This document shows, piece after piece, positions 3,044 to 63,640 of a DNA stretch of 64,000 nucleotides (position 1 is the stretch's first letter; every line of letters begins with the position of its first letter). This stretch comes from Atriophallophorus winterbourni (taxonomy: Eukaryota > Platyhelminthes > Trematoda > Plagiorchiida > Microphallidae), in assembly GCA_013407085.1 (NCBI GenBank), contig JACCGJ010000641.1:62001-126000 (forward strand). The letters run 5' to 3'. A model generated the notes under the pieces. That model had not been told where the DNA came from and searched no databases. It saw only the letters and a program-made list of their open reading frames with translations. Made by a program: the position numbers and the translations under genes.

Positions 3044-6000
3044 CTGTTTAGAGAGAAATCGAATTTTAGCACATGGGAAATGGAATTATTTTAGACAACA
3101 TTGAAACTCCAGAGCCACTGTTAGCAGGGTCAAACGGGATATTCGTTGACTGCTGCATTCCTCCAACGGTACGCATGACGAGTGTTATTTATCGATTTTA
3201 ACATATCTTGAACTATTATAAAGCGCCATTTGAGATGAAATTATTCCTTCCCCAGACAGCATCCACGTATTCGACCTGTATACAAATGTAAACTGTATCA
3301 TCGATTGAACCAAAAATTTAGAAAAAATCTGCAGGTGAAATAATGCGATATTTCTTAGTTTTTTCATAGAATTTACAGTCAATTAAAAGAGAAGTGAAAT
3401 AATTTGTCTTGCATTAGCAAAAAATGTGTTTTATACGGAGTAGTAGGCGTCATTTTCAAGTAGACAACCAAAAAGAATAAGACCTTTCCTGTATTAGAAC
3501 GAGCAACTTAATTGTTGCGAATAAATATCCAAATTTTCATGCATTTCTTTCACACGCACAGACGCTACGACCAGTTTCGTGTTCAATTAAGGACAGTAGG
3601 GTCAGGATCCGAATTAATTGAATCGGTGGAGAAATGGTAAACAAGGTTTTGAAGTTGTAAGCCACTTTTGTATAAGAATGGCACGACCAACTTGTTCAAT
3701 CACTATTACCCACGCACATCTGGGTGAGATTAAACCCAAGGTCATGAAGAGAATTACTCATTTGGAGTCATTTCCATCCAACAGTGGGTTATAAGTTCAT
3801 ACGTTGTTTAGTATTTGTTTACTGTTTCGAGTAATACGGATCCCGATCCTGTTTTCTCTACCTGATGGCCACGAACCCGGTCGTGGGGTGTTTGTGTGAT
3901 GTAAATGCATGCAAATAAGGTATCCCCATTTATCTGTGTGTGGGAACATACGCTTGAACAGGTTGGTTGTGCCAAACTTATATATCATTGGCCTGCGTGT
4001 TCATACATTTCTTAATCTAAATTATTTATTCAATTATTTCCTTCTTAAGCTTTTAATTGACTGCTTTGAAAAGAGAGCCACCAATCTGTTGCTAATCGTA
4101 TACCATGATATGCGTTAACATACGTGACGGATTACCTTACTGTTCGATAAAATGTAATGAAACTAACCTTGCTGAATATCATGTTGAGATCAGCGAATTG
4201 TCCGTGTAAATCCCCGATCACGGTAATTTGACGAGAAATCGAAGTGTAAGCCCTTTGGACATTCGGTCGAGCAGCGAGTATTTGCAGGGCGTGTGTGAGT
4301 AGCGTATAGATGTAATAACAATGAATGCGCTGGAAAGAAAAGGTTGATGTAGATTAGCAAATAAACCTGGATGAGTCACGTGTATGGAAGTGAGACCACC
4401 GACTTCCTAGACGGATACATTTAGCAACACCACATCACGATTAGCATAGATCTCGTAGTGGGCAAACATGACATAAGAAGCTGACGATCCTAACTAGTAT
4501 CAATTCTGTTTTACGGGATAGGTTCCCCGCGATCAGATATCGCAAGGGCTAGTTACGCTTCAAGTTATGCCTCGCAAATGTGTTCAGTTGCGGTCGTGTA
4601 GTAAGCATCTTTTCGAATTGTTTGCGTAATCTTTTGCTGTCAAATGGTTTGACGAGGAAAGGAATTTATGATGCATAGAAGTAAATACCACACGGAAACT
4701 GTCGCGTTGATGTCGCTCTACTCGTTCAAGAAACCTTCTTGAATGTCTGTTACATTCAAGCTGTATTCATCGTATCCCAGTTTGTTCGTATGTCCGCCCC
4801 AACCGATCTATCAGGAACTTATATTTTAATGGTTGTATGGCAGTTGATGCAATTGATGTCTTGTTTCGGTGTAATGCGCTCCTATGTGATGATGACGATG
4901 ATATACTTATCTTGAATTTTAACAAGGACAAGTCGACTTCTATGCGCAAGTCTTAAATTTAGTGTGACAGCGGTCTGCAAAACCACTAATACAGATTTAA
5001 TTCACGAAATGCACGTATAAATCGAAGCGGCTTAATAATAATAACAATAATAATAATTATTATTATAATTATAATTATAATTATAATATGATGATGATAA
5101 TGATGATGTCGATGATGATGATGATGATAATGATAATGATGATGATGATGATAATGGAGAAGAACAATATCTAAGAAACAAACAATTTACAAAAGTTATG
5201 ATTTAGATCTATTTGATTGGAAGCGCTCAGAATAAACAATTTACTTTTCTTCAAATTTCTATCTTCATCCAACTCGATAGTTATGATCAAGGCATTTATT
5301 GTCACGAATCAGGAGCCAAATGTCACATTAGGTGAATAGCGTTTCCATGGTATCATCGTAATCTGATGCCAGTTCTCTCGTATAAATGTTCAAGGGATAG
5401 GCTTTGAATGTGGCGTATTCGTGCCCTTTTAGACATCAAAGAAACATTGCTTCCATAATCATTGATATAATGCTTTGATATGCTTTCCCTGTCTGACGGC
5501 CAGCTTATTTCTAAAATACAATTTTACTAGATGCAAACAAAGTTTGGATTGGTCAACATGAAATTGTCAAAATTAGATTTGAATATATCCAAGTTGGGTG
5601 AATGTGCAACATTACAGGGTAGGTAGTTCCAGGTAAAGCATACACGTACAGAATAAATGTTCCTTCGACAGTTTAGTCTTGAGTCGGGAATATCTACTGC
5701 ATAGTCGTGACTCCGGCTGGTTCTGGGTGGTAGTCGCGTGAATAGTTGATTTAGAGGATGGTTGGGGGTATGTATATTGAACATAAGTATCAAATCACCT
5801 CTAAGACGGCGGTAGCGAAAATCGAATAGATTGAGACTTGCAATACGATCTTCGTATTGTTTGTGCTTCAAACCGCGTACGAGCTTGGTGGTCCGATGAT
5901 ATATTCTCTGCAAGAGGCTGATGTCCTTCTGCAGCCAGAGTGACCAAGCCTGAACAGCATACTCCATGGTTGGCCTCAAAAACGTATTAATTATTCGATG

Positions 6001-12000: not shown

Positions 12001-15000
12001 CTTCCAAACTGGATGTGTATATGACGAACGATGCGGTATGTGACTGTCCCTATTGATTTTTGAGAGATTTGTTATTTTACTCCATATACCTGTCATTCTG
12101 TGGTTATTGTTAAGGTTACTGCTTTTTCTACCATAAAACATTCTGAGGTCTGAGTTCTGACTGTGAATAGTATATAGTTAGTAGCAGCGTTGTGAGTCCT
12201 TGAATGTATAAAGGCACTTCCGCTTGAGCAAAGCTAAAACTTTATATTCCACTCAACATTCTTTCCTAGTTAATTTCCGTGTGAGCAAAGCTTATGAGCA
12301 GAAACTGGGAGCAGTTTTATCTGCACAGGATTTCATCACACTGGCAACTGATTGATTGCATTTCAAAATAAATGATTTGCGAATCACACTGACTATTGTT
12401 TTGAAATTAGAAATAGGTAACTGACTGAGAATGTTATTAGCTGGACTTTAATTTACAATGTGAGCGTATGTTGATACGTTCCATAGGCAACGTGTCTTAC
12501 TGGAACTGTCAAAGTGCATATGCGTCGATTTGATTTGTGCGGAATGAAAATCGTACATATGGCATTTTATCACACACGATAACAGATGTTCTTTCCTTGC
12601 ATTTTTGTTTGGCATCAAGCGTAATACGTGTTCTTATCAGGTTTATCCATAAAAAAGATTTCTAGCATAGATTCCTACACGGTTTTATTAATGCTTAGAC
12701 CATCAGGCGACTAACTCATACGCGGAACTCTAACAGTTATTAAAGAATTCCTTATTTTTCACATTGACGATAATGGTTGTTGGCCTCCTTCGGTTGATGT
12801 CGACCATGGATGTACATCACAATCGCATGAATTTTCAAGTTCTACAGCATTTTCAATGACTAAACAGAGAGCGGAACAATCTCTCCCGCAGCGCTTGCAA
12901 CGATGGTCAGAACTCGGTTGTAGGGCGTCATTTGCACACCGGCGGTGTGATCTGCGTTCGGTAGCCAAGAGCTGTATCTGCTACTCCCCAGCTTGCAGAC
13001 GACGATTAACACAATGCCTCCAATGTGAGCGGTCAAGAGCACGTTCTTCCCAACTCGCAGGATCAATGCTAAGAACTTTCATATATCTTTTGCAAACGTC
13101 TTTGTACCGCAAGTGCGGTCTGCCCAATGGTCGATTTCCTAATTGCAACTCACCATAGAGTAGATCTTTCGGAATACGACCATTTTCCAATATGTAGACG
13201 TGACCAAGCACTTCAGCGTTAGTCACTCTGTCCATCCACGATATGTTCAATATACGATGGATGCTTGTAGATGGAAAGCATTCAGCTTCCGTTCGTGTCT
13301 TGCGTGGGTGGTCTAGGTTTCACTGTCGTACAGTAAAGTGTTTAGTAAGCACGCGCTGTATATTTGTCTTTACAGTGACCTTGCGGTTACCCTGAACAGA
13401 AGAGTTCAATCAGGAAAAAATGACAGCTGCTACACAAATATGCTAATTAATCTCCGTGTCTAGCGAGAGGTTATCCGCAACGGTTGAACCAAGATATGTG
13501 AAATGATGTACTGGTTCAAGCTGACAGTTTTCAATAGTAATGATTGGAGGCGATACAGTCCCTTGACCAAGGACTTTGGTCTTTCTCGTGCTGATTGTTA
13601 GCCCAAAGTCTTTGCATGCTGACGAAAAACAGTCCATTAGCGACTGGAGGTGCTCTTGGGAGTGAGCAATGAAGGCTGCATCGTCGGCAAACAGCAGGTC
13701 ATGGATTAGCACATCCCGTGCCTTGGTTTGTGCTCTCTCAGGTTGAAAAGATTACCGTCACTCGTGCGCAGGTAAATGCCTTCTGTTCTTGTTCGAAGAG
13801 TGTTCTTTAGAAGCAGAGCAAAGAAAATGCCGAACAGCGTGGGAGAAAGAACACACCCTTGTTTGACGCCTCGGCGAATTTCAAAGGCTTCTGAACTGAA
13901 ACCGTTGAAATGGACTGACGCTTCATGTCTGAGTAGAACAAAATAACGAGTTGGAGCAGTCTTGGGTGACAGCCTATCAGATCAAGCATTTTGAAAAGAC
14001 CCTCGCTGCTGACGTAGTCGAATGCTTTCGTTAAATCAATAAAAACAGTGTATAATGGCATACGCTGTTCCCGACACTTTTCTTGAAGTTCTCTCAGGGA
14101 GAAGATCATTTCAGCGGCTGATCTTCCCTTGCGAAAGTGACGATGATTACACCTGGATAAAATCTGTTAAATACATCCATCATCGTTCCTTTACATTGTG
14201 GACAACCTTCAAATTAAACTTGGTTTCAAGCACACACAAAAATAATTAAATTGTGTGACTCAGTTTAATACATCTCATTGAGATTCTTCAACAAGGTTAA
14301 TAATTAGAAATGCTCATATGCATGTATTTCCATCACACACACACCACGACCGGTTTCGCGCTGTTTGCACTCAACAAGTAGGGACAGTAGGATCTGGATC
14401 CGCATGCGCTTGGAACAGTGGAAGAATGGTAAACAACTTGCGTTTGTATGCCACTGCTGGATAAGTTTGGCACGACCAACCTGTTCAATCCCATGTGCCC
14501 ATACAAATGTAGAGGGTGTAAAACCCACGATCATGAACAAAAAAGTTCATTTGAATGTATTTCTAGCACATACACACCACAACCGGTTTTCTGCTGTTAG
14601 TAATTGTTGTTGCTCGCCGTTCGTAACGAAAAGTTTGTTATTCGTATCAAACGATATTCTTATTTCTCAGTAAAAGTCGGGTTCCTTATAGCAGTTGAAA
14701 AGATTCATTGTGAAAGCATCAGAGTGATATCTCAGTGTAGCTCATTTATATCAGTCTATCTTAAGGATTTGTTAACTTTCGCTTTAGTTGTAATTATATT
14801 TTACGGCTAATGGAAATTCGTCCAAATTATCATCTGAAAAATTATCGGGTTTCTAAAAATAGTTTATTGCTAGGCAACGAGTTAATCTAAAAATATTGAG
14901 GAGTGATTGATCGGACCGGATAAACCTGGTTAAAAAGGATAATGACGAAAGAAAAGCATGTTTTTAGCTCCATGTGATTGAAGCTTTCAAGAAATCGTGA

Positions 15001-18000
15001 ATTCCACTCAAAACGTTCGTTGAGGAACTTAAGTAGTGGGGATCAAACTTATAATTCCGCATGCTCTTAATTTCATGTTGTTATCGATCGCTCTGGCAAT
15101 AAGCTTACTTCGAGTATGCCTACGAAACTACAGTGCTCTTCCCAAGATATACGGCAGTCCAATCCGTAGCACATGGAGCAAACGAAATTTCATTACTGCA
15201 TCACCTACTGAACATTCTAACCAGAATATAAATGGTGGGTTCAAGTGTCCAAGAAAATCTAGAAACAAAATTTAGCCTTAAAATGCTGTGCGTTTCGTTC
15301 AAATTTCTCACATAAGTTTATTTGAATGCCATTCAGTTACGGAGGAGAGAGGATAAGCTCTAATTTACCTTAGCCAGTTTAGAAAAAAAACTAGCATTTG
15401 TATGGCCGAAAAGCCAGAGCTACAAAGGCGCTTTACAATTAACTTAAATGCCAACTGCAAGGCAGCTGGTTATATTTACGAATGTTTAATTAGTGAAGAA
15501 CACTATTGGACAGTAAAACATTGAAGAATTTTACATCAGTCACATTTAAAATTTCTATTTTGAAACTACATAACTATTACCAGAGTGAGTAGATTCAAAG
15601 TCTGCGTGTCCCCGTTTTTCACAATCTCGTACTGGTTAAATCGTTTCGGAGCCACCTCTTGGTCAGGGTGTAAAGGTTCTGTTAGATAAATCAACGACTT
15701 CTGCTCCTCCTGACGGTTCCGTGCTTTTTGTACTCATCATTTAGGGACAGTGATTTTAAGATACGCATGCGTTTGAAATATTGGAAGAATGGCAAACAAG
15801 TTGCGCTTGTATAAGGTTTATACGACCCGTGCTTGGACACATGTGAGAAAACATGTTGATCGTACCAATCTTAGCCAACAGTGTCATAGAAGCACAACTT
15901 GTTTAACGAGGGAAAATGTTTGGAGTGTTCTTTTTTAACTTTGTGAAATCAGATTTGGTTGAGCATATGCAATGGATTTATTTATAAAGTCAAACACTGA
16001 ATTCTTGTCGGCAAAATAATAATTTTGCTCTGATTTTCAGCATGCTTAAGCAAAATGTTGGTATATTAAACACAATTCAGCATTGGTTATATCATTGAAA
16101 CTGTTCTACTGCTTTCCACTCAGAACTAATACAATGTTTGCTGAAACTGAATCGCTGATCACACGTTCAGAGTTAGGTCCTTGCCTTCTGTAATATTGTT
16201 TTACTGAAATGTGGCTGCAAACTTAAACATTGCTCAATTAGCTTCTTCGAAAACATTCTTTATAACTCATAGCAATGACGCAAACATGTTTTGGATTTCA
16301 AATTTAGCACTTCTGCTTTCAAAGAAACAGTGACCTCAAATTCTAACTTTGTTTAACACTTTTCCACTGTTACAAGGCTCGCGGAACCCTAACTTATGGT
16401 CTCCATCTGATGGCGGTAAACAGCCAGCAACCGGTTGCCTTGTTTAAGTGTGGAAGATGTGAGCTACATTTCATTTTGAAAAAACATTACTGTTTTGGGT
16501 TTGGAAGTTAGAGCTTAAAAAGTGGTATGAATTTTCCCGTTTCACTAGAACGACAAACACTTGTTGACTACAGAGATGTTTCCAGGAATATGATTCGTGG
16601 AAGAGCAGCAAACATTATCAGGTGGTATATGAACTGGCCTGCAATATGTTGAGGATGTTGAAACGGTTTTGTGAAAATTAACTAATCATAACTGCAGTAG
16701 TTATTATACGAATAAACACTTGATAGCCTACCATATTCAGAGACAAATTTGGCTAGTTTCTGGCCATGCAATGATGGTCAAAGATAAGAACATGTTTTTC
16801 ATAAAGCCATCGGTTGTTTATTGGATGAAATACACTTCCGTAGATGTTAATACAATTAAGTGGACTTTAATGATAGAAGAGCATGCGCAGAATCGATGCG
16901 AACCTACAAATACTCTTTAGAGGAGTTATTTGTAATTTGATTTATTCTAGACTGCAGACAACAAAATATCGAAAATGATGAATGGATGCTTTTCGGTGTA
17001 CATTTTTCTTGTTATTCGGTTCCCCTCCACGTCTCCATTTTGTGAAATTTTGTTTCTCCTCACCTCCATCTCAAGGTCAAAATAGGCCAAGCTAGTTCTT
17101 CCCCAAATCCGTTCACACAATTATTACGTCTAAACTTTCTACAGTTTAATATTAACTTTATTGCAGCGTAATATCTCATTCTATCCCCGATATTCAACCA
17201 CCGATACTAATTTACTCTGCTCTACTCTAATTAACATTAAATACTTGCGGTTAAAAATATTCTGTTGAACTATTTATCCAGGTTAGACGAAGCAGCTTTA
17301 GCGAAGCATTAAATGAAAGCGAAGGAATTCCTTTTCGATATTTCTCCGATATATTTATATTTTATTACACATGTATTGTCAAGCTCGATGAGAGATGCTG
17401 AAAACGAATTCCTACGCTTTCATCAAATTTTTCGCTGAAAATATTGGAGCAGCTTTAGTTAACAGAGCACTGATTTTGAAGCTGGATTGACCAAGATGTT
17501 CAATTAAATGAACATCCTTACATATCTGTAAATGGGTGAACACATTGTATACGCATATATGCTACTACATTTTACTCAATCAGCGAATGCTTACGTGTGG
17601 TTTAGTCTCAGTGATTGGTGACAAAACGATTAGAATCCGTGTACCTCGTAAGAAATGTAGAAACAATAGATAAGAGTGCTAGTTTTCATTCATAATTAGA
17701 TAAGGCTGGCAAGACTAACGTGTTCAATTCCATGCGCCACACAAAAATGTGAATAGAGTGTCAAACCCAGGCGGTTGAACACAATGCACATATTGGTGGG
17801 ATTCTTGTGTCAAACACACACACAACACTACCGGTTTCGTGATGTTTGGATTCATCAGCAGGGCGCAAAACAATCAGGGACATCTGCCTTGTAACAACCT
17901 AGAAATCGTATATAGCTTGAATTCTCAAGTTTCTTTGTCAGTGGATCTATGACTAATAAACAATGTTAATATAAATCTAGAGGTTCTGGCGTCATTTCAT

Positions 18001-24000: not shown

Positions 24001-27000
24001 CCGCCAATGTAGTTGACTGTTTTCATAGATACGTACAAAACGTTACGCTAAATGCTTTTGATAAAGATGTGAGAAAAAACAAATTATTTGGCAAAATCAT
24101 TTGATGAGCTAATGTGTTGCTATGCAACGCCGATTTGTTAATGAGATTTATGCTTACAACTCGTAATTGCAAATGGAATACTCGTAAGTGTGACCAGACT
24201 CAACAGAAGGTTTTCGCTTCTGAACTAGACATATGTTTGCATTCAATTAGATACGCGTTTACGTGATTTTACCTACGCCGTGAGAAGCGGCTCAGCATCA
24301 CCGTATGATCCACTTCATTGTGTAACTGCATTCTCGTCTTAAGCTCTGTTCCAATCAACATCCTGGTGCAGATGAGAGATTTCGTGTTATTGTGGAACAA
24401 ACGGACAAATCCATTCCATTGATCTTGAAGAAATTTCATTCGCATGCATTTCCATCACACCTACCATCAACTTGTTTCATTCTGTTTATATTCATCAGGT
24501 AGGGACAGTACGATTAGACTCGGCATGCCTTCGGACCGTGTGTATGTGTGTGAGGGAAGTGCATGCAAATACAAATTTTTTGTTCAATCACATGCGTTTA
24601 ACCCATCAACATATGTGTGGGCACGTTTTATTAGAAAGGTTGGTCATGCCATATCAAAAAATGTATTACAATCTCACAATTTCAACACTGTTTCAAGCGC
24701 ATGCAATCCTGATCCTTCTATACCTATCATATGAGAGCAAACAACAAAAAACCGGTCGTGAAGTGTGTGATAAAAATGCATCCGAATGCTGATCATTTTC
24801 AAACCTATGTGTATGACAATATTTACATGTGTTTGGGTACATGTTATTGAACGGGTTGGTCGTACCAGCCTTATCCAACAGTGGCATAAAAACGCTACTT
24901 GTTTACCATTTTCCCACTGTTTCAAGCGCATACGGATCCCGATCCTACTGTCCCTAACTGATGAGTGCAAACATCAAGAGAACGGTTATGGAATGTGTGA
25001 GATGGAACTGCATGCAAATATTGACTTTTTGTTTAAAGCAAACCTTACATTTTTGTCCCCATTATTTTTTATACTGTATTGATTCAACAAAATATGACAA
25101 TAAATAAATGATTTTTTAAATAATAATGACAATGAAATTGATTTTTTTAATGAATAATGATATCAATTGCATTATTGAAGTAACATGCTAACAAAATTAT
25201 TTAAATGTGATTAAAAAGAGAACTTAAACATAATATTCATTTGCATGCTTTTCCGTCACAAAACACCCCACGACCGGTTTCGTGCTGTTTGCACTCATCA
25301 GGTAGGTGGCAGTAAGATCAGGATCCGCATGCGCTTGAAACAGTGGAGGAATGGTAAACAAGGAGCGCTTGTATGCCACTGTTGGATAAGGCTGGTACGA
25401 CCAACCTGTTCAATCACATGTGTCCAAACACATGTTTAATGGGGTTTAACCCATAACCATGAAACAAAATATTCATTTGCATGCTTTTCCGTCACAAAAC
25501 ACCCCACGACCGATTTTGTGCTGTTTGCACTCATCAGGTAGGGACAGTAAGATCAGAATCCGCATGCGCTTGAAACAGTGGAGGAGGAGGAGCGCTTAAA
25601 CATATTGACACTAGGTGTGCGGCTATCTGAAATTTAGAAAGTTACGCATAAGTTTTCCTCCGATGAGGGAATATGTGAGCTCGATAATATCTCAGGCTTT
25701 GAAAAGTTGATTCTTGACAAACATTTATTCAAGCCAGGTTGTATTTAACAACAGCTACTGAAACATGATAAAAGTAAGATTCCTTCCGCATAAAACACAC
25801 AGAAAACATGAGCTACTCCTGTTCCTTTGTGGTATTCAATAAAAGAAGCAATCGCGAGTAAATTTGAGTAAACAGACGCTGCATAGTTTCCGTTAAATGA
25901 CATTTCAATACAACAGTGAACTTACTGCAGCAGGTTTTTCGAGTATTCTTTCTGAATGTCAAAGCCATGCCAACTGGAAATAGAATTTAAAAAAACGTGT
26001 GAACATTCAATAGTTTGCAGGATGGTAAACAGTTAAATTCCTCAAATCTAGAAGGTTGATAACATTACAATTCCCTTGAGAAATTATCGGTATTTTCGAT
26101 GGAATAAGATTTTGTTTATCTTTATCAAGTTTTCTAGATTTTTGTGCAGCCGATAAGAAGACTTCCTCCTAAATGGCATATAATGGCGCGTTTTACATGT
26201 CTCAAATCAGTGGAATTGTTGTGAGTTAAATACTTTACGGTACATTTTCATCTTGTCAACTAATTAAGTTGTCAACTTACTAATACTAATACTAATACTA
26301 ATTTCGAACAAAGATTCTCATTTGCACGTGGGGTGTCTGTGTGTGATGGAAGGATTTTTATTTCAAAGCCCTGAGTGAAACCCCATCCGCTTGTGTGTAA
26401 GCTCTTGTGATTGAGAACGGTGTTTACCTGTAATCTTTACACGAATTGCGAACGATGAGTGAACATTGTGATACAAACGTTATCATTAGAATCAATGTCA
26501 TTAAAGAAGACTCAGAACGGACTATGCAAAAAATTCCAACCGTGTTCCACTATCGTTTAACAATGATCACAGTGATTTTTTTGCAAAAACTCAAGAAATA
26601 TTGGTATGGGAACGAACATGAATGCAAGGTAGGGGACGCGAGATTGTACTAAAACATATTTTATTTATTGCTGACCTCCTTTAAACGATGTCGATCATGG
26701 ATTAAATGATAAGCGCGGGATGATCTCATGTTTGCATGGTTTGAGTGAGGAATGGAAGTACTTTACAACACTTACTGAAGCAATCGCACGAAGAAACATC
26801 ACGTCAACTGGGAAAACGACACTTAGATTGGTAGTGAAATTCATCAAAAGATCTCTATAGAGGCATCTGTAAAGCTTTACCAAACAATTTGCAGACGACT
26901 TTGAAAGAAAGCCTCCACAATAATCCATACATCCGAAACTGAAAGATTGAGTGTTATCAACATCTAACCTTCAACATAAACAAAAATGAATGTCACGTGT

Positions 27001-33761: not shown

Positions 33762-36700
33762 ATGTCGTTTGAACTAGCAGATAATATTCCCGAACGCGTC
33801 GACAGAACCAGCGTTAATCATGTATCAGAAGGTGGCAACCTCTCAAAGCTTGCAGCCACCGTAGCCATGCTGAATAAGGAACTTGCATCCTTACAGCTTA
33901 CCATCTTTAACTTGGAACGCTACAAAACGTCTAGATTTAGACCCCGGAGTCCATTTGGAAAGAGAAGACATTCTCTTACTCGTGATACCAACTGGTTCTG
34001 TTATTATCACCGTCGTTTCGGAAACGCTGTGCGCACTTGTCGCCCCGGGTGTAAACATCCTAACGCTGACAGCCACCGTGTTGATAAACCACGTAGCCAG
34101 TCAGTTATGGCGACAACCGCTTCTGGCAAACCTACTAGTCGCATCCAGTATGTATATGATGCGTCGAATAAACTTAACTTTCTCGTGGACACTGGTGCCT
34201 AAGTTAGCGTTATACCGCGTAGCTGCAAAAAACGTGACTTACGTCCATCAGGCATCACACTGCAGGCGGCTAACGAATCGAAAAATTTGACTTACGGTGA
34301 GAAACTTTTGAAACTTGATCTCGGACTTAGATGGGCTTTCCCTTTCATCTTCTTGATAGCCGATGTTCAGAAACCTATCATCGGTATCGATTTTTTGACG
34401 AAATACGGTCTCGTAGTCCATCTCCGACACCCACGGATACCTGACAATACTACGTCATTGAACGTGTCAGGTAAACTATGTTCCATCATCTCACCCAGTC
34501 CTCGCATATTCGTGCCGAACAGTGCCACATACAGCGACATTCTGCGTGAATTCCCGAACTTGACACGCGTATCGTCATACTCGGAGACTCCCACCCACGA
34601 TGTTCAACATCACATCGTTACTAAAGGGCCTCCGGTTTTTGCCAAAGCTCGAAGGCTGCCTCCAGAAAAACTGAAAGCAGCAAAATGTGAATTTGAACAT
34701 ATGGCTGCGTTGGGCATAATTAGACCGTCAACCAGTCCGTGGGCATCGCCGTTACATATGGTCGCCAAGAAGAACGGCGATTGGAGACCTTGCGGAGAAT
34801 ATCGTGCGTTGAAAAGCGTTGCCCAGCCCGACCGCTACCCTATTCCGCACATACATGATTTTTCGCTAAGCCTCGACGGAAAATCTGTTTTCTCCAAATT
34901 AGACCTCGTACGTGCGTATCACTAGATCCCCATGGCACCTGACGACATTACAAATACTGCTGTAATAACATCATTCGGCCTTTTCGAATTTCTTCGTATG
35001 CCATTTCGTTAACGAAATGCAGCACAGTCTTTCTAACGGTTCATGGATCAAGTTCTTCGTGGTCTTGACTTCGTCTTTGTGTATATCGACGACGTGCTAG
35101 TCGCTAGTTCATCACACGAAGAACATGCACGACACCTCCGCAAAATCTTCCAACGTTTTGCCCACTACGGTGTTACTAACAATCCCGACAAATGCGTCTT
35201 TGGCCAGTCGACCATTGATGTTTTCGGCCATAGGATTGACAGTGATGGTATAAGCCCGTTACCCGAAAAAACGCAGTCAATAATTGAATACCCAATGCCC
35301 CAATCCGTTAAAAGTTTACGTCGATTTCTCGGCATCGTTAACTACTACGGAAGATTTATCCCTGACGCCGCCAACATACTTCATCCACTTAATGATTTGC
35401 TCAAAGGAAACCCCGAAAAATTGTCAATCACTGCTGCCGCAGAATCTGCTTTGGTCTAGGTTAAAGAACTTCTGAGCAACGTTACCGCTTTGAGTCACTT
35501 GAAAACCGACGAAAACGCACACTTGGTTCTGAAAAGCGACGCCTCACAAGCTGCAGTCGGAGCCGTCCTACAACAGGAATTCAACAGGAACATTCAACCA
35601 CTATCCTTTTTCTCGCGGAAGTTGCAACCAGCTCAGACTAAGTATAGTACTTTCGGACGCGAACTCCTCGCAATTTACCTAGCTATTAAAAACTTCCGTC
35701 ACTTACTTGAAGGACGTAACTTTACCATCTTTACCGATCACAAACCAATCATTTATGCTTCCCGTTCTCCGACAGACAGACACTCGCCCAGAGAAATCCG
35801 TCAGCTTGATTTCATCGCACAGTTTACGACAGATATCAGACATATCGACGGTGATCGTAACATTGTTGCTGATGTTTTATCACGTTGTTCCATCCATGAA
35901 TTGATCAACCCAGTACTCGATCTCAGAGAGCTCGCAAGTCACCAGGAAAACAATCCCGAATTCATCGAAATCGTTGCCAATAAATCTCTGAAATTCGCAC
36001 TTTTGCCGCTACTCGATTGTGATGCCAAGATCCATTGTGACATATCGACCGGTAAGCCGAGACCTTTCGTCCCGCAAACATATCGCCGGAAGATCTTCGA
36101 TCACTTTCACGGATTGTCACATCCGAGTATTCGTTCAACTGTGAAAATCATAACAGAACGATTCATTTGGAAAAATATGCAACGTGAAATCCGTCATTGG
36201 GCCAAACACTGTGTAGCATGCCAACGCCGCAAAATTCATCGACACACCCGTGCCCCGTTCAGCACATTCCCTGTACCCGACGGTCGATTCAGGCATATCC
36301 ACCTGGATATTGTTGGTCCTTTACCCGTTTCCCGAATTTATAGCTATATCTTGACATGCGTTGATAGATACACTCGCTGGTCTATAGCAGTCCCAGTTCG
36401 TGACACCTCCACAGATACCATCGCGCGAAAATTCGTCGATTCATGGATATCGATTTTTGGTGTACCCTCTACTATTACCACCGACAGAGGATCACAATTC
36501 ACAAGCGCTTTGTTCCGTGAACTAGGCCGTTTACTAGGATGTGACCATATGCGTACTACTGCATATCATCCTGCAGCTAACGGTCTAGTCGAACGTTTTC
36601 AACGTCAATTGAAAGCTGCTATAACCGCTTGTTCTGGAACAAAGTGGTCTGAATGTCTTCCTATCATACTTCTCGGTATTCGAAACACCGCTAAGGAAGA

Positions 36701-37235
36701 CATCGGTTGTTGCCACTCAGAGTTAGTATTTGGCACCACACTGAGACTGCCTGGCGAGATGGTACTCGACACACGCACTACCGTCGAGGTTGAACCAGCA
36801 TCCTACTGCACCAGACTAAAGCAACATTTTCAGTCTATCAAGCCCGTTCCCACACGTTTTGTCGACCGTCCCTCATTCATTCTCAATGATCTCAAAAGTT
36901 GTCCCTACGTTTTCGTTCGAGTCGATGCCGTTTGAAAGCCCCTACAAACTCCGTTTTAAGGGCCATTCAAAGTAATGGAACGTAAAGACAAATATTTCGT
37001 TCTGCTACGCAACGGTATCAGAGACAAGGTTAGCATCGATCGCCTAAAGCCTGCTTACGTCGAACGGAATTCATCACAAGAAGCTACCCCTTTAACTCTA
37101 CCCACACAGCCTATGACGACCAGTGATGTTACATCCAATCGACCCTCACCCATCCTGTCTACTCCTTCATCTCGTCAAACACGTACCGGCCGCAGAGTGA
37201 GGTTCCCCGCAAGACTGGTAGAATACATGCCTTAA
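33762..37235 (+). pseudogene. Gypsy gag-pol reading frame with seven in-frame stops
   Basis: One continuous frame from an ATG at 33762. Gag is short (about 145 codons to the protease) and seems to have lost its central part, but keeps the zinc motif FCYYHRRFGNAVRTCRPGC near 33995-34050. Protease has VDTGA at 34185, followed at once by a stop. RT shows [32 protein letters not shown] and YIDD at 35082-35093. RNase H has LKSDASQAAVGAVLQQ and FTDHKPII. Integrase has the HHCC finger and a DDE core (HLDIVGPLP, TTDRGSQF, GLVERFQRQ). Stops lie at 34200, 34923, 35010, 35034, 35457, 36933 and 36957, with no frameshift. Confidence 0.93.
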
Positions 37236-38399: not shown

Positions 38400-39140
38400 C
38401 AACGCTTAAATGGTGAACAACCTAATCTTGCATAAAAATTAGGGTAAGAATTCAGGAAAAAGCTTACCCCAGATGCGGTCCAAACCCTGCTTAAAACTTG
38501 CGACAGAACTGCAGGATATAAGTTCTTCTGGAAGCCGGTTCCAGAAATTTACCACCCCGAGGCTGAAAAAGTTTTTCCTGGAGTCTAGTCTACATCGCTC
38601 CTTAGCAAGTTCGAGTGAATGGCGCCGGGTGCCCAGCTCAGGACTAAAGGCAAAGAAGTCGGTCATGATTACGCCACTTAACCCCTTCAAGATCTTGAAG
38701 GTTTCAATTAAGTCACCTCTCAAACGACGGCGCGTAAGTGAAAAAAGATCTAGGGACTTCAGGCGTGCAGCGCAAGGTTTCCCTCGCTGACCCTCAATCA
38801 TGCGAGTTGCGAGACGCTGTACGCTTTCGATATCCTTCTTGTAGTAAGTGCACCACGCCTGGACACAATATTCTAAATGCGGCCAAACTAATGCCTTGTA
38901 AAGGGGCAGGAATACATCGGGTCTTCTGCTGGATAACACGGATCTCAGCCGAAAGAGAACTCTGCAAGCACGTTGAGCTGCAGTGGCGCATTGGTCTTCC
39001 CATTTGAAGACAGTCCTAACTAGTAGTCCTAAATCCTTAACACGCTGTGTGGCGCCAGACCTACACTGAACCGTCACCGCAAGCTGGGTCAGTAAAATGT
39101 AGTTATTTTTTGGTATCCTCGTCGTATGCAATGGTATGTC
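38400..39140 (-). pseudogene. CR1-like LINE (family B), C-terminal fragment
   Basis: A 230-codon minus-strand open stretch with [64 protein letters not shown] and NFFSLGVVNFWNRLPEEL. This is the C-terminal domain of a CR1-like element different from the copies at 928-12065. Its 3' region probably continues beyond the Gypsy insertion at 32845-33331, so the Gypsy element landed in it. The reading frame is intact, so it is fairly young. Confidence 0.85.
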
Positions 39141-39149
39141 AAGTATTAT

Positions 39150-40463: not shown

Positions 40464-40781
40464 AATGACACTAAGTCGGCACCAGTAATATTTTGGAAAA
40501 CAAAGCCAGTCGCAGTTGAAATGCGCTGGGGAATCCATTAACCCTTAGAATAGAATTGAAGTCCAACCTCCGTTATTCATATTTACTGTAATTTTGTCAT
40601 TGACATTTACTATGGTTCAGAAGAAGATCCTGATGCTGTGGCCATTTAATGACCTTTAAATATCTCAACAAATCACCGTGATCACTGGGTCCGGTGAATT
40701 TAGGATCATATGCAAAAATGTAACGGGGGCATGACGACTTTGAAGCCAAATCGATGAAGATCAGAAACAGTATTTGCTTAG

Positions 40782-41277
40782 TGTAAATGACGAAAATTTT
40801 GTGTAAAATTCCTTCTTATTTTTCTGTTTGAACAATTGAATTCTTCTTAATTGTCAACAATTTTATCTTACATTGTTTTTGTGTACACATTTTCCTTATG
40901 CACCTGTATACCCCATTTTGTTTTACTGAAGTAATTTATATTGCTTGGCTGCCATTAAAATTCCACATATTTTGCTCGTGGTATTTGGAGAAAACAGGGA
41001 CGATTGTTCATCATTGTATTGGTAATTTTATTTCTTTGCATTTATCATTTGGCAGTCTATCTTGTCAGCATTGGCTGAATTTGTTGTTGTCATTTGGAAA
41101 CTTTGAGCATTTTGGCTCACATCATTTGTACAACCCGGTACAGTTGAGGTTTGTTAATTGTTATTGTCTATTAATATTGTTAATAGAACCGTAGAAAACT
41201 CGAATCATTGTGGTTTTGAATTGTCGAAACTAAGAAACGGGTGGACTACGCGTTAAACAGCGACTTTAGTCGATACA
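40782..41277 (+). repeat. BEL/Pao 1 5' LTR
   Basis: Starts TGTAAATGACGAAAATTTTG and ends CGACTTTAGTCGATACA. Paired with 44703-45198. Confidence 0.95.
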
Positions 41278-44492: not shown

Positions 44493-44702
44493 GTCTACGT
44501 TTGGCAAACGTTTTCTCTATAAAAAGCCACATATGTCCAGTGATAGCAATGCAATGTGGCGTGTGTGACTCGCCACTCAATAAAGTCATTTGCCGTTTGT
44601 CTTGCGTTTTTTGGGTTAGGATTGGAGTAGTTGGGTAGGGAGGCGGAACCAATCAGTTAATTTCATTCAGAACACCAGGTTTAGAAGGAATTTGGCGGGA
44701 GG

Positions 44703-45198
44703 TGTAAATGACGAAAATTTTGTGTAAAATTCCTTCTTATTTTTCTGTTTGAACAATTGAATTCTTCTTAATTCTCAACAATTTTATCTTACATTGTTTT
44801 TGTGTACACATTTTCCTTATGCACTTGTATACCCCGTTTTGTTTTACTGAAGTAATTTATATTGCTTGGCTGCCATTAAAATTCCACATATTTTGCTCGT
44901 GGTATTTGGAGAAAACAGAGACGATTGTTCACCATTGTATTGGTAATTTTATTTCTTTGCATTTATCATTTGGCAGTCTATCTTGTCAGCATTGGCTGAA
45001 TTTGTTGTTGTCATTTGGAAACTTTGAGCATTTTGGCTCACATCATTTGTACAACCCGGTACAGTTGAGGTTTGTTAATTGTTATTGTCTATCAATGTTG
45101 TTAATAGAACCGTAGAAAACTCGAATCATTGTGGTTTTGAATTGTCAAAACTAAGAAACGGGTGGACTACGCGTTTAACAGCGACTTTAGTCGATACA
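44703..45198 (+). repeat. BEL/Pao 1 3' LTR
   Basis: Nine substitutions against the 5' LTR, no indels, same 496-bp length. Confidence 0.95.
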
Positions 45199-45713: not shown

Positions 45714-48011
45714 AGTTTCGATGTGCATTCGCTTGACAGTGATGAAATAATTCATGTTGCCGAAGCTTACACGGTTTCCAAGTTATCTGAAGCAGTGCTG
45801 AATTCCCCAAATATGATCAGCGCGAAGTATGCACATTTGAGAGATCTGAAATTTTCAGAGAATGTTGGGCAAGAAATAACTTTGCTAATTGGATTCAACG
45901 TACCGGAAGCGCATTGGGTGCTCGAACAACGTTTAAGTGGTCGTAAGCAGCCATTCGCTACCAAGACGTTACTTGGATGGGTTCTACAGGGACCAACTGA
46001 TTGTTCGACAGTTGTTAATGACGTGCGTGCTCTCATCGCACAAACACAAGATGTGCTCGACAAACTCACCAAGTTGCATGACGAAGAGTTCGCCGATCCT
46101 TGTGCGGAAGATACAATTCTCTCTCGTAATAATGGATCTTCGCTACGTATAGTAGAAAAATCCTCATTAGTTGACGGGCATTTTCAGTTACCCCTTCCGT
46201 GGAAAAAACCTGATATTCAATTGGATGATAATTATCAGTTAGCCTTAAAGAGGCTCAGCATGTTAGAAAGACGTATTGAAAGAGATGGACAGTTGTATCT
46301 ACGATATGTTCAAATATTACGACATCACTTCGAATCCGGAAACATATAGAATATTTCATATACTATTGAGCGTCCGACACGTGCTTCGTATTTGACACAT
46401 AACCTGGAACTGAATCCACGGAAACCGGAGCAGTGTAGAATTGTGTTTGATTGTGCTGCAAAGTATTACCACGTCGGCTTGAACGACATGTTGTTACAGG
46501 GTCGGAAACTGACAACGAACTTGGCTGGCATCAAGAAAATGTTTCTGCGAGTGCCTGCGCCGCAGGCGGGCCGAGACGCATTAAGACTACTTTGGTGGTC
46601 GAATAACGACATGACGTCGCACATTAAAGTGTACCGAATGACAGTGCATCCATTTGGTGCCACTTCACCATTTTCTGCAACTTATGCGTTACGCAGAACT
46701 GTAGAACAGTTTGGACATCAGTTTGACGACAGCATCAGTGAATATGTACATACTAACTTCTTTGTGGACGACTGCTTGATTTCGTTGCCATCTCGAGAAG
46801 AAGCAATGAGAGTGATACGGCAGCTCAGTGAATTATTGAAACTTGGTGGGTTCAACTTGACGAAATGGCTATCAAACCACCATTTGTTGCTTGAGTCTAT
46901 GCCAATACACGAAATGGCCCCTCATTTTCGGGTGATAGGCGAGGACAACCCGTGTATCGAAAGAATGTTTGGAGTGATATGGAACGCATCTAATGATGAA
47001 TTTACACTGGAGTTTAATATGCCGAGAAGTGGAATACTGTCCATGGTCAGAAGTCTGTACGATCCTCTTGGGTTAATGAGTCCATGGATTCTGCCCGGAA
47101 AACATTTATTACAATGCATTTGTAGGAGAAAGTTGGGATTGGATGAAAGGATTCCTGATGATATTGTGTTGTTATTCGATAGATGGATATCATCCTTACG
47201 CTCTGCCAAGGAGATTCGAGTGCCTCGTTGCATTGATGGGCATTACCAGCTTGATACGCAAATACATTTGCATATATTTTGCTATGCATCTGAACTTGGT
47301 CACGGAATAGTGGCATATGTGCATATCTTTGATAAAGGATTCGTTTCACCTGCTCGTCGTTTATTTTCAAGGTCTAGAGTTAATCCTTTGAAAAACAGTT
47401 TCTATTCCCAGAATTGAATTACAAGCAGCTAGGCTGGCGTTACGAATATTGTTGTTGTTGGCCTCCGTCGGTCGATGTCGACCATGGATGTACATCACAT
47501 CGCATGAATTTCATGTTTTGCAACTTTTTGAATGACTAAACAGTCCGATTCGGGAGGAACAATCTCTCCCGCAGCGCTTGCAACGATAGTCAGAACTCTG
47601 TTGTATTGCATCAGTTGCACGCCGGCGGCGTGATCTGCGTTCAGCAGCCAGGAGCTGTATTTGCTCCTCCCCGGCTTGTAGTCGACGCTTTACACAATGC
47701 CTCCAAAGTGAGCGGTCAAGAGCAAGTTCTTCCCAGCTTGCGGGGTCAATGTCAAGAGCTTTCATATCTCTTTTGCAAACATCTTTGTACCGCAAGTGCG
47801 GTCTGCCCAATGGTCGACTTCCTAATTGCAACTCACCGTAGAGTAGATCTTTCGGAATACGACCATTTTCCATTCTATAGACATGACTGCTGTGCTGGAT
47901 GAGAAGCGCTCAGCATTCTTGAGGTTACGAATATATTTGTTATTAAAACGAACGTTTGGAAAACACATGAAGAATGTGAACTTTTGGACAGACTGAATGA
48001 CAGTCCTTCGG
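45714..48011 (+). pseudogene. BEL/Pao 2 pol remnant
   Basis: Starts inside the protease-to-RT region (VHSLDSDEIIHVAEAYTV), with one in-frame TAG at 46347-46349 and then RT with VHPFGATSPFSATYALRR and the catalytic FFVDDCLISLPS near 46760. About 25 residues around the first catalytic Asp are deleted (TTNLAGIKKMFLRV). It continues to IELQAARLALRI at 47449 and, after the first RTE copy, to VNFWTD, a stop, and MTVLR at 48011 in RNase H. These two sides of the insertion read in the same frame, which shows the empty-site sequence. Confidence 0.88.
47450..47923 (-). mobile_element. 5'-truncated, 5'-inverted RTE copy (twin-priming structure)
   Basis: Flanked by an 11-bp target duplication GTTACGAATAT (47439-47449 and 47924-47934). 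Minus-strand 47887-47450 is the last 435 bp of the RTE element, with an intact C-terminal frame including [17 protein letters not shown] and the zinc finger [18 protein letters not shown]. Next to it, 47883-47926 is a 43-bp piece in opposite orientation, matching 49676-49718 of the full-length copy. The inversion junction shares ATGAC. This is the layout produced by twin priming during target-primed reverse transcription. Confidence 0.9.
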
Positions 48012-51000: not shown

Positions 51001-51868
51001 AAGGGACTGTATCGCCTCCCATCATAACTGTTGGAAACTGTCAGCTTGAATCAGTACATCAGTTCACATACCTTGGTTCAACCATTGCGGATAACCTCTC
51101 GCTAGACACGGAGATTGATAAGCGAATTGGCAGAGCAGCTGTCATTCTGTCCCGTTTGAACTCTCGTGTTTGGGGTAACCGCAAGCTGACTGTAAAGACG
51201 AAAATGATGGTGTACAGCGCGTGCGTACTGAACGCTTTACTGTACGGCAGTGAAACCTGGACCACCCACGCAAGACACGAACGGAAGCTGAATGCTTTCC
51301 ATCTACGAAGCATCCGTCGTATCTTGAACATATCGTGGATGGACAGAGTGACTAATGCTGAAGTGCTTTTAAAAGCTGGTCTACAGAGCATGTTCACTCT
51401 ATTGCGACAGCGCCGCCTGCGCTGGCTTGGTCATGTCTATAGAATGGAAAATGGTCGTATTCCGAAAGATCTACTCTATGGTGAGTTGCAACTAGGAAGT
51501 CGACCATTGGGCAGACCGCACTTGCGGTACAAAGACGTTTGTAAAAGAGATATGAAAGCTCTTGGCATTGACCGGCGAGTTGGGAAGAACTTGCTCTCGA
51601 CCGCTCACATTGGAGGCACTGTGTAAAGCGTCGTCTGCATGCTGGGGAGGAGCAGATACAGCTCTTGGCAGCTGAACGCAGATCACGCCGCCGACGTGCA
51701 ACTAACGCAATACAACCGAGTTCTGACTATCATTGCCAGCGCTGCGGGAGAGATTGTTCCTCCCGAATCGGACTGTTTAGTCACTCAAAAAGCTGCAAAA
51801 CTTGAACTTTCACGCGTTTGTGATGTACATCCATGGTCGACATCGACCGAAGGAGGCCAACAACAACA
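48012..51868 (+). mobile_element. Near full-length RTE-like LINE, 3.86 kb
   Basis: Flanked by TTCGG (48007-48011 and 51869-51873), a possible 5-bp target duplication. It has a 5' region of about 627 bp, a single long ORF, a short 3' end and a GGCCAACAACAACA tail shared with all other copies in the window. It sits 88 bp from the other RTE insertion, in opposite orientation, so the shared 3' ends form inverted repeats of about 430 bp (47451-47885 against 51440-51868). Only the end of the ORF is damaged. Confidence 0.9.
48639..51626 (+). CDS. RTE-like endonuclease/reverse transcriptase
   Basis: 995 codons from ATG 48639. The N-terminal APE-type endonuclease (residues about 1-260) has LKLGTWNVRSMLPG, ALLETRLPDTGKL, VVLGDFNARVGADYES and the final SADCDTDHSLV. 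The RT domain (about 480-780) has [84 protein letters not shown] and the catalytic [13 protein letters not shown]. The C-terminal domain reaches RRLRWLGHVYRMENGRI. A one-base deletion near 51572-51585, relative to the copy at 47450-47923, shifts the frame, so the protein ends early without its C2HC finger (still readable at 51734-51796). It nicks the target and copies its own RNA there. Confidence 0.93.
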   Translation: MSFLKLGTWNVRSMLPGFHDDVSNTRGVRKSAVINNELKRLKVDVAALLETRLPDTGKLTERDYTFFWKGRGSDEPRLHGVGFAVRNDLLKATEPSSSGSERIWTLNLRCITGIITLVNVYAPTLSATTTEKDAFYYNLATVLKNVPQRNCVVVLGDFNARVGADYESWQSCLGKFGVGKTNENGLRLLELCTQFSLCVSNTFFQTKPQHKVSWKHPRSKHWHQLDLILVRRPNIGSVLLTRSYQSADCDTDHSLVCAKLKLSDTRFHRNKLSGKPRIDVTRMCEPNLVARFAKAFTAEFSKTTPLESASENWKSIKNSICRVALSTFGPKKARTSDWFEAKASEMTAVLDEKRSALLRFKGMPTDENLRLLRAARNKVQQTARRCANDYWTEISLSIQKAADTGNFHGMYDGIKRAIGPNKHKMAPIKSVSDDPIVDKTQQMERWVEHFSSFYSRDSTVLPHVFENFERLPTIEYLDTPPTLDELNRAIDRLANGKAPGDDGIPPALIKCGRAALLQPLHHLLLQCWQEGGVPQEMRDTKIITLFKNKGDRGDCNNYRGISLLNVVGKVFAKVLQIRLQVLADRIYSESQCGFRKGRSTVDMIFSLRQLQEKCREQRMPLYAVFIDLTKAFDYVSREGLFKMLNLIGCPPRLLKLVISFHSGMKGSVHFNGFSSEVFEIRRGVKQGCVLAPTLFGIFFALLLKYAFRTRTEGIYLRTRNDGKLFNLNRLRAQTKARNVLIRDLLFADDAAFIAHSQEHLQSLMDCFSSACKDFGLTISMSKTKVLSQGTVSPPIITVGNCQLESVHQFTYLGSTIADNLSLDTEIDKRIGRAAVILSRLNSRVWGNRKLTVKTKMMVYSACVLNALLYGSETWTTHARHERKLNAFHLRSIRRILNISWMDRVTNAEVLLKAGLQSMFTLLRQRRLRWLGHVYRMENGRIPKDLLYGELQLGSRPLGRPHLRYKDVCKRDMKALGIDRRVGKNLLSTAHIGGTV

Positions 51869-58300: not shown

Positions 58301-61300
58301 TTCGCGTGCGGAACCTCGTCCTAAATGTAAGTTTCAAGGTCGATTCCATTGAATTTTCAGTTTATGAACTTGACGAACGACAACATAAAAATGTACAACC
58401 AACTGTTGACTCTGGTCTCACAAGTGTTGTACGCATTGAGCACACAATACTTCAATGCAGTTTTCAACCGTATTCCCAACTGGTAAGTGAACCACTGTCG
58501 TTATATCTATATATAAGCATGCGTTTTCATCACATATAACGCACCAGTTTGGCGTTTGCCCTCATCAGGTAGTGACAGTAAGATCAGGATCCGCATACTT
58601 TGACACAGTGGCTGAACTTTAAGTCTACTGTTGGATGAGCTTGGCACGGCCAACCTTTTCAATCACGTGTCCACATATGTAGATGTATGTGTATGTAGAG
58701 TTAAACCCAATGGCTCGAACAAAAATCCGTATTTGTATGCCTTTTCATCGCACGCACCACGACCGGTTTCATGCCTCTAGCTGATAGCGCAGCAGCATTA
58801 AACCGGTCGCCTTTTGTTTGTGGTGGAAATAAATACAATTTTTTCAGGCCCATCTGCATGTGTGTGCGGGCACATGTGATCGAGCAGGTTAGTCGTGTCA
58901 GTCTTATCTAACACTTACTTAAACGCTTAAGCTTGGCACCAATAATTAATAGCAAAATAACTGCGAAAGCTTAGTACCTTATATTACCGATAGAGATTGA
59001 TACGGACGCAACCGGAGATAAACACTAGCTCTATGGGAGACAAAACTTGATAAGGAATGAAAAAAGTAGCGTGTTATTGAGTGATGTCAACATCAGGCCT
59101 ATTACTGAAATTCCTACATAATATTTACGAACACCAAAAAACCTAGTTTTGTGCGTGAGTCAGTATGGTTGAACTAGTTCATTCCGCTCGCTATTTCGGC
59201 TATTTTCACGACTAACTCAAAGTAATTATTCGTACATTTCCACCCTTTTCTTCTCAGTTTAACACTTGCGACACAAGATGAATCTATCGGCAACAGCTGG
59301 AACGAGCTAGAGCTGATACAGCATTTAAATTTGGACATGCACAAACTATCTCGTCTGATTTTCGGTATGTTCTCACTTCACTTGCATGTTGCTAATGTAC
59401 CGATTCAGAAATAACAAGTCGTTTCCAGTCGTTGAAGAAGGCCACTTGGTTACATTTGGCTGTTTACTTGGAGCGAGTAAGTGACCGTGTTTTTATTATT
59501 CACACGGGACAGCATTGAATTGGTAGCATGTTCCAAATGCATAACTGTCGTACAACCATTGAAAAATTAAAATATCAAAACATGGGGAATGGTGGGACTT
59601 AAACAGCTGCGGATTCTGTAGAAGGGTAAGCACAAAAAACTAGGATGAGGTGCCTACACCTCGAATGAAACGTGCATTCACTCAAGATTCGTGAACAAGT
59701 AGAGCGACATAAGCACGACAGCTTCCCTGCGGTTTTTACTGCCATGCATCATATCAAGCTTTCCTCGTCATTCCGTTTGACAACATACAAGGTTAAGCAA
59801 ACACTCGAAGTAGATACTTACTTCATGACTGCCACTGAACACGGTTTCGGGACATATCTTAAAACAAAACCAAACTGCGATATCTGAACGTGGATTCCCA
59901 CACGTGAGAATTTATTTCTAATTTTAGTAGATAATGAAGTATCAATCAGTAGTACTAACTAACATTTCGGGCGATTATTCCTAATCTATGTTAACCCCAG
60001 CTATACGATTTATAGTTTTTTTGCCGCAAACAATTTAAACAGAAAACATTACTTGAACCCATCTTATAAATTATCTGCTTATTAAAGTTTGTAGGCTTTC
60101 ATTGTACGCTTTTCATTTTCTTTCTCTCGGCGTTAAGTTTAAGTTAATTTTTCACTTCATCTTCTCTTGTATGCAAACCACATATTTTTGTACTGTTCTC
60201 CTGCTATTTTTCCGGCACTTCTTTTAAAAATCGTCATGTTGCTCAACATCGTTTCACACGCTAGTTATGGTTGCTATGGGGACATTCTTAAAAAATATTG
60301 AAACGACATTTTTCCTTTTGAGACCCACTAATAAATAACATCCACAATGATATTTCTCACCCCACTTCATGGCGATCTCCTACAAAGTCATGCTGCTTCG
60401 ACGACTTGACTAAAACACATCATACTGCTTTCTAGAACGTCTTTTTATCGGGGTCCTTTATCCCATTTGCATCAAAATACCTTTGTTGAAAAGAACAGTT
60501 TATTGAACAATTAGGGTAGAATTTATCTTATTGATATCATGTCTACGTATTCCGTGAATATTATTTTATGTAGAATTTTTCCATAATTGGTTGTGCGTAT
60601 TTTAAATTAGTCTGAAGCTGAAATTTCGAAATTTTCCGCATAAAAATTTATCCTTCCTTTCTTCCGTTATCATCAGCATCATCCTTACGCTATTTAGCTT
60701 TGCAATTCCCATTCACAGCATTCGAACAAACCTCCGATATGATGGTTAGATTTTGAGAAAATAAACTCATCATTTCAAGCTCAGTTACGATGTATTCGTG
60801 TTAATATCAATAATAATTTCGAGCGTTGTGAACATGTCACACTGATGCTTATCACAGCGATCGTTTTTCATAAATTATCGTTCATCACTCATCGTTTTCA
60901 TCGTCACCATCATGGGGCAGATGTCTGGAACCAGACAAATTACCAGGCAACCTGAAAAGCAGATAAACACGTAGAAAGGAAGCGGGCAAGCGAATTATGC
61001 AAATGTGTATAAAAAGCAGTTCGTTTTTGCTGTGCCAAATGCTAGTTTACTCAACGCATGAACACATGAATCGCATTACAAAGCAGAATCGTGGCACTGA
61101 AACAAGATTATTTTGAAGATCCGGTCAGCTCATCCGTGATAGCAAATCTACATGATATGCATGACTGGCAAAACGATTCCATTAACTTATATTACTCCTG
61201 TTATTTGTAACGATAGAATTCGAACTGAACTCTAGGTTGATGGCAAGTAGTTTGGGGTTGAAATTACGATTCACCCTGCCGAAATTAATCTCAAAACATT

Positions 61301-63514: not shown

Positions 63515-63605
63515 AATTTGCATCTATTTCCATCATACACACCTCACGAACGGTTTCGTGTTATTTGCACTCATCAGGTAGGGAAATTACGATCAGGATC
63601 CGCTT
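63515..63605 (-). repeat. Partial hammerhead repeat, core nearly kept
   Basis: AATTTGCATCTATTTCCATC, then CACGAACGGTTTCGTG and GCACTCATCAGGTAGGG. On the minus strand CUGAUGA and GAAA are intact, stem II pairs as GUG/CAC, but stem III is ACC/GUU and the cleavage context reads GUUC. It ends near GATCAGGATCCGC. It lies in the NF1 intron after exon 8. Confidence 0.75.
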
Positions 63606-63640
63606 GCTGTATGTTGTGATCCACCTTTCTATAAACATAG

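Follow-up and report, generated by a model that had tools for sequence, protein, structure and literature searches.

A decayed, retrozyme-like hammerhead repeat in Atriophallophorus winterbourni, likely inserted by reverse transcription of circular or multimeric RNA

Animal non-LTR retrozymes have been described as tandem repeats, from dimers upward, with units of 150–450 bp that carry type I hammerheads; their GC content is below 50%, they lack LTRs, and their target duplications, when present, are longer than 4 bp (PMC7229834). In coral, mussel and axolotl these elements occur as linear and circular RNA of 170–400 nt; monomers cleave fast in the coral and more slowly in the mussel, and the axolotl retrozyme acts as a dimer. 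The same account places similar repeats in other invertebrates, including platyhelminths (PMC7229834). Within the flatworm genus Schistosoma, the Sm-alpha and Sj-alpha elements are characterized as SINE-like, dispersed, high-copy, non-coding and hammerhead-bearing (PMC2770079, PMC8490949). Among the titles and abstract openings listed from the open-licence literature, which covers the field in part, none described a fluke family of such repeats outside Schistosoma. Here we describe a 236-bp repeat family in a 64-kb stretch of DNA (the whole stretch analysed, hereafter the window) that probably adds a new flatworm representative to the retrozymes already known from animals.

The copy on which this analysis centers, element A, lies on the minus strand at 25233..25594 and is 362 bp long, corresponding to 1.53 units of 236 bp. 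Its extent follows from a BLAST self-match together with a flanking 10-mer. The self-match pairs 25226-25350 with 25462-25585 at 95% identity over 125 bp, with a start offset of exactly 236 bp. Because CTTAAACATA sits at both ends of the repeat, on the left at 25223..25232 and on the right at 25595..25604 (no strand being assigned to either), we set the element at 25233-25594 and read the two 10-mers as a target-site duplication. This 10-mer has only two occurrences in the whole window, at 25223 and 25595, one per repeat end, and the chance of a shared word of at least 10 letters at such ends is 0.1% as judged from 3000 random pairs of places. The GC content over 25232-25595 is 46.7%, and the longest stop-free stretch in any frame of the element is 68 codons, on which basis we take it to be non-coding. 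With a type I hammerhead, a tandem unit of 236 bp, low GC, no coding content, no LTRs and a 10-bp duplication that exceeds 4 bp, element A is like the animal non-LTR retrozymes as that account portrays them (PMC7229834). The initial annotation had proposed a tandem 236-bp repeat, which is correct for 1.53 units over 362 bp and does not extend to an array: a long satellite array in the window was considered and rejected, as Tandem Repeats Finder reported no period near 236 and copies range from 0.4 to ∼2 units. Sm-alpha carries a Pol III promoter. Element A is unlike Sm-alpha in that such a promoter is not evident, since neither an A-box nor a B-box consensus was matched in 25232-25595, and we rejected this candidate feature. 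By description, which is the only basis of the comparison, the 236-bp family is otherwise like Sm-alpha and Sj-alpha in being a dispersed, non-coding, hammerhead-bearing element in a flatworm setting.

The intact hammerhead of element A, termed A1, lies on the minus strand at 25267..25306 and retains all core bases. In minus-strand order it reads CCUAC CUGAUGA GUGC AAACA GCAC GAAA CCGGUC GUGGG. Stem I comprises 5 bp (CCUAC/GUGGG, 25306-25302 with 25271-25267), stem II comprises 4 bp (GUGC/GCAC) capped by an AAACA loop, the core blocks are CUGAUGA at 25301-25295 and GAAA at 25281-25278, and the stem III palindrome ACCGGU occupies 25278-25273. Position numbers used here (G12, 15.2, C17, C3 and A14) follow hammerhead numbering; C17 is then at 25272 and the predicted cut falls between 25272 and 25271. 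These observations bear out the initial annotation as to a minus-strand motif with all invariant bases, a stem II with an AAACA loop and a 5-bp stem I (25306-25267).

A descriptor of core plus stems, for the type I pattern CUGANGA...GAAA...UH with stems I and II, was run on both strands of the 64-kb window; it matched A1 alone, and it had no match in 60 first-order Markov-simulated windows. When the 25-mer was allowed up to three mismatches, five window sites including A1 were recovered against a mean of 0.00 over 100 shuffles. The Rfam Hammerhead_1 model scored A1 at 26.8 bits (E of 0.0012 for a 3-kb search space, 0.027 for the 64-kb window) and recognized three window sites at E values up to 10. 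An Infernal search with Rfam was the check that the initial annotation had named, and it went against that annotation in that no match reached the gathering score of 34 (A1 at 26.8 bits, the second hammerhead A2 at 23.4 bits), although the E values for A1 are low. Another hammerhead-like motif is located at 22-88 on the minus strand, where the Rfam HH9 model gives 26.1 bits, under its gathering score of 52. This motif has ACCGGUC-GUG in common with the 236-bp family, but C3 is replaced by U and A14 by C, and it is absent from the nhmmer matches to the family.

Stem III does not close in a single A1 molecule, as ACCGGU leaves no loop. Because this hexamer is self-complementary and loopless, it pairs only between two hammerheads, and the three-pair stem III that had been drawn inside one hammerhead is impossible. 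The missing loop also leads us to expect that element A would act as a dimer, like the axolotl retrozyme and unlike the coral and mussel monomers (PMC7229834). The natural partner within the element is A2, at 25503..25542 on the minus strand, the core of which is broken: G12 is changed to A at 25517 and position 15.2 is a U (25513), whereas its own cleavage site at 25508/25507 is intact. G12 functions as the general base, and the A12 substitution, which has a much lower pKa, has been used to capture hammerhead structures (PMC2553840). With its general base changed from G to A, A2 should be inactive. Element A follows the retrozyme layout of tandem units with one type I hammerhead each (PMC7229834), the second of its hammerheads being broken. 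The claim of a second copy 236 bp away consequently holds for the exact spacing and the 95% identity over 125 bp but not for the core, and the wording "structurally complete" was too strong given that the partner carries G12A and that stem III requires a second hammerhead.

When constrained to the double-hammerhead form, A1+A1 has a calculated energy of -28.9 kcal/mol and A1+A2 of -26.3 kcal/mol, with -9.8 kcal/mol for a single hammerhead minus stem III. Free cofolding does better than the double hammerhead, at -34.1 kcal/mol for A1+A1 and -33.2 kcal/mol for A1+A2, and A1 (-14.1) and A2 (-18.1) folded separately total -32.2 kcal/mol as compared with -26.3 kcal/mol for the two joined. In these folding models the double hammerhead is therefore not the lowest-energy form of either pair.

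In the double-hammerhead model, each core cleaves at its partner's site. The intact A1 core would then cut the A2 site at 25508/25507 alone, sparing its own site. Release of the unit needs two cuts; since A2 is without G12 and the A1 site would stay uncut, the locus should not release the 236-nt unit. Judged from its sequence, the locus is probably no longer releasing circles and would be a fossil insertion, not a source. Hammerhead satellites of newts form arrays with double-hammerhead action. Element A resembles them in a palindromic stem III that is expected to pair across two hammerheads, and the 236-bp family differs from them in consisting of short dispersed copies.

Using nhmmer and local alignment we analysed nine loci of the family, A to H and J, a set from which weaker stretches found by either method were excluded. 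Copies are on both strands, and the eight beyond A are decayed, with 70–84% identity to the unit among the 12 aligned stretches once A is left aside. Copy B (24549..25034, plus strand) contains ∼2 units in the orientation opposite to A, and both of its hammerhead cores are broken. Direct repeats lie in it at 24549, 24761 and 24993, with spacings of 217 and 232, and it is covered by alignments at 24549-24719 (stretch H2) and 24602-25034, the left end of the latter being set by the stretch supplied and not by the repeat itself. The remaining copies are all on the minus strand. Copy C (14308..14598) is 1.25 units long and 82% identical to the unit, copy D (58517..58774) 1.18 units and 78%, and copy E (3523..3778) 1.11 units and 75%; the hammerhead core is broken in C and D, and most of the hammerhead is deleted in E. 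Copy F (17584..17910) is degraded and keeps CUGAUGA and GAAA with stem II lost, and its similarity to the unit stops near the cleavage site. Copy G (63516..63607) is 0.4 unit with a hammerhead that scores 21.5 bits with Rfam, having kept the core letters while losing a base pair in stem II along with the palindrome of stem III. Copy H (24431..24528) is 0.43 unit with a degenerate hammerhead, and copy J (15714..15812) is a degraded fragment with an end near the cleavage site. From their sequences, the copies of the family look like decaying fossils.

Exact target duplication was tested at all nine loci and found at one of them, A. That of copy C is imperfect: AATTACTAAC and AATTATTAAC adjoin its two ends and match at 9 of 10 positions, which has a chance probability of ∼5% (4000 random pairs). 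No clear duplication was found at B, D, E, F, G, H or J. The absence of an exact duplication at 8/9 loci, the head-to-tail arrangement of the repeats, and the fact that the schistosome element was originally named a satellite (in the title of a cited reference) would all suit a tandem satellite whose pieces were scattered by recombination without an RNA intermediate. A satellite origin of this kind does not readily account for a window that has no long array and in which copies of 0.4 to ∼2 units stand in both orientations, nor for 3' ends that cluster (see below) and a 10-bp flanking repeat that is exact at one locus, and we consider it very unlikely.

Because A and B point in opposite directions, we considered that they might be the terminal inverted repeats of a transposon of the DNA class, and rejected this because each of the two has its own tandem repeat and copies at other places stand alone. 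A tail in common with a LINE of the window was also sought, and no partner was found: all BLAST matches of 24600-26200 are within the repeat part (query 87-986) and were taken as family copies. Copies B and A are ∼78% alike over 342 bp. Between them, 24825-24950 and 25310-25435 form inverted arms of 126 nt that are 90% complementary; the similarity of these arms perhaps reflects gene conversion, and a read-through RNA across B and A would be predicted to form a long hairpin.

We aligned ten hammerhead sites of the family, leaving out those of C and D that a first pass had truncated, as well as the deleted one of E. Only A1 passes the core-plus-stems descriptor, and both CUGAUGA and GAAA are at homologous places in four of the ten (A1, F, G and H). 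Paired cells amount to 69.5% in this alignment versus 67.6% in shuffled ones, with 93 of 500 shuffles as high, and the covariation term from an alignment of five whole units is unfavourable (+1.2). Neither the 236-bp unit (-68.3 kcal/mol, z -1.25) nor the motif at A1 (z 0.12) folds clearly better than its shuffles. Given these z values, covariation close to shuffled levels and a term of +1.2, structure gives no support. The lack of covariation among copies and Rfam scores below the gathering threshold are what one would expect if the hammerhead likeness had arisen by chance within an unrelated repeat. Such a coincidence is extremely improbable in our estimate, as it is at odds with a descriptor that matches 0/60 simulated windows, with homologous retention of both core blocks at 4/10 sites and with three sites that the Rfam Hammerhead_1 model picks up at E values no higher than 10. 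Exact patterns from the repeat had no matches in viral and prokaryote contig collections, which says little because those collections are viral and prokaryotic. Unlike the published animal retrozymes, the family is seen in the window as only 0.4 to ∼2 units per copy.

To describe where copies begin and end we used unit coordinates in which phase 0 is the first base past the predicted cut, applied to the 12 aligned stretches. The 3' ends of seven of these fall at phases 28–45 (A 38, B 45, C 40, D 28, E 40, G 32, H 40); the phase of 38 for A is set by the flanking repeat, as alignment alone overran to 72. Other 3' ends are at 132 (E2), 0 (F), 196 (H2, which continues into B), 154 (I) and 232 (J), so that two of the twelve (F and J) terminate at the cleavage site. 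Start phases vary (A 137, C 218, D 222, E 14, E2 120, F 151, G 175, H 175, H2 11, I 177, J 133) yet partly cluster, with G, H and I at 175–177 and C and D at 218 and 222. A cut template copied from its 3' end would be predicted to give ends at 235 or 0, a prediction that F and J alone match. Copies A, B, C, D and E each exceed one unit, which indicates that their template ran beyond a cleavage site. As seven of the twelve ends lie 28–45 nt past the cut and several copies are longer than one unit, reverse transcription appears to start within circular or multimeric RNA. For the ends other than those of F and J, the simplest reading of the sequences suggests that copying began internally, ∼40 nt beyond the cut, with an uncut RNA, circular or multimeric, as its template.

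A binned alignment gives only coarse support for a shared 3' end. Bins 40–80 nt after the cut fail to separate terminal from internal passes. The 80–100 nt bin separates them, with means of 15.0–16.7 for four internal and 7.0–12.0 for five terminal passes; in this bin G scores 10.2, H 8.8, J 10.8 and F 14.0, as compared with 9.4 (sd 2.3) for random sequence. Copy F may continue past the cut in view of its value of 14.0.

An internal rather than 3'-terminal start of reverse transcription has been described for Penelope-like elements (PMC11167929) and resembles most 3' ends observed here, and hammerheads of Penelope-like and Terminon elements are reported with a minimal, loopless stem III like that of the 236-bp unit (PMC7761336). 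These likenesses raise the alternative that the unit derives from a Penelope-like element, as a fragment of its pseudo-LTR or as a non-autonomous form, with minimal hammerheads that act as dimers. Penelope-like and Terminon elements as described encode a reverse transcriptase, joined in canonical Penelope-like elements by a GIY-YIG nuclease, whereas the 236-bp unit encodes nothing (PMC7761336, PMC11167929). Stop-free stretches in element A do not exceed 68 codons, and it is the 236-bp unit that the copies repeat. Of ten window frames tested with Pfam, five have domains, which are endonuclease, reverse transcriptase, integrase and Pao peptidase; a reverse transcriptase and GIY-YIG in one element were not found, there being no such frame in A and no GIY-YIG domain in the ten frames. 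We therefore regard a Penelope-like origin of the unit as unlikely. More specifically for the retrozyme-like reading, we tentatively suggest, with considerable doubt, that reverse transcription would begin at a single fixed position inside the unit, ∼40 nt beyond where the ribozyme cuts, and would go more than once round an RNA circle. A Penelope-like start of this kind would produce the partial tandems, and the end made by cleavage would not be the end that integrates.

The window contains several other mobile elements. A fully open LINE frame of 1015 codons, which we take to be RTE-like, is at 48579-51626 on the plus strand and has endonuclease and reverse transcriptase domains (Pfam). LINE-type stretches at 12776-14137, 47450-47887 and 50417-51868 are related and 88–92% alike by BLAST. 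Direct repeats of 497 bp at 40781-41277 and 44702-45198, which are 98% identical (BLAST) and bracket a frame of 1008 codons whose weak match to DUF1759 falls under the cut-off, are probably LTRs of a young insertion; nearby, the frame at 46350-47417 has a Pao peptidase match. For the gypsy-like frame at 35460-36935, the best 120 of 1575 matches have Hymenolepis microstoma as the closest (63%), together with Dicrocoelium (65% over 82%), Sparganum and Schistosoma (54–55%) and Spirometra. The frame at 38442-39149 has 1017 matches; of the best 120, most that are named come from birds, and the others include two turtles, bacterial bins and a single Dicrocoelium. From the gypsy-like set and this one Dicrocoelium match, the host would be read as probably a flatworm and perhaps a fluke.

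Taken together, the type I hammerhead, the partial tandem of a 236-bp unit, low GC, lack of coding content, 10-bp flanks and dispersed copies lead us to favor, with a probability of roughly 80%, the reading of element A as a decayed animal retrozyme: a 1.53-unit copy of a dispersed, non-coding type I hammerhead repeat that has exact 10-bp flanks and was likely inserted by reverse transcription of circular or multimeric RNA. On the same features (GC 47%), the retrozyme or Sm-alpha-like layout recognized in the initial annotation is supported; its claim of completeness goes too far. We infer from the sequence that the 236-bp unit would move as circular RNA. In the cycle that we propose, adjacent hammerheads of a multimeric transcript would pair via the ACCGGU palindrome and then self-cut, and a host RNA ligase would close the unit RNAs into circles. 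Reverse transcription, by an enzyme borrowed from an autonomous element, would begin ∼40 nt downstream of the cut; copying would cross the cleavage site and go on through more than one turn or repeat, ending when the enzyme falls off.

Element A is thus a real hammerhead-bearing, retrozyme-like insertion that is itself probably dead. As it stands it is an ordinary decayed copy, and the lasting interest is the 3' end common to most copies. Retrozymes are considered to move by way of RNA circles, but the template and start point of their reverse transcription have so far been inferred, not demonstrated. Short, well-bounded copies with a common 3' end away from the cleavage site could separate linear, multimeric and circular templates from genome data, and such a family could also point to the copying enzyme.
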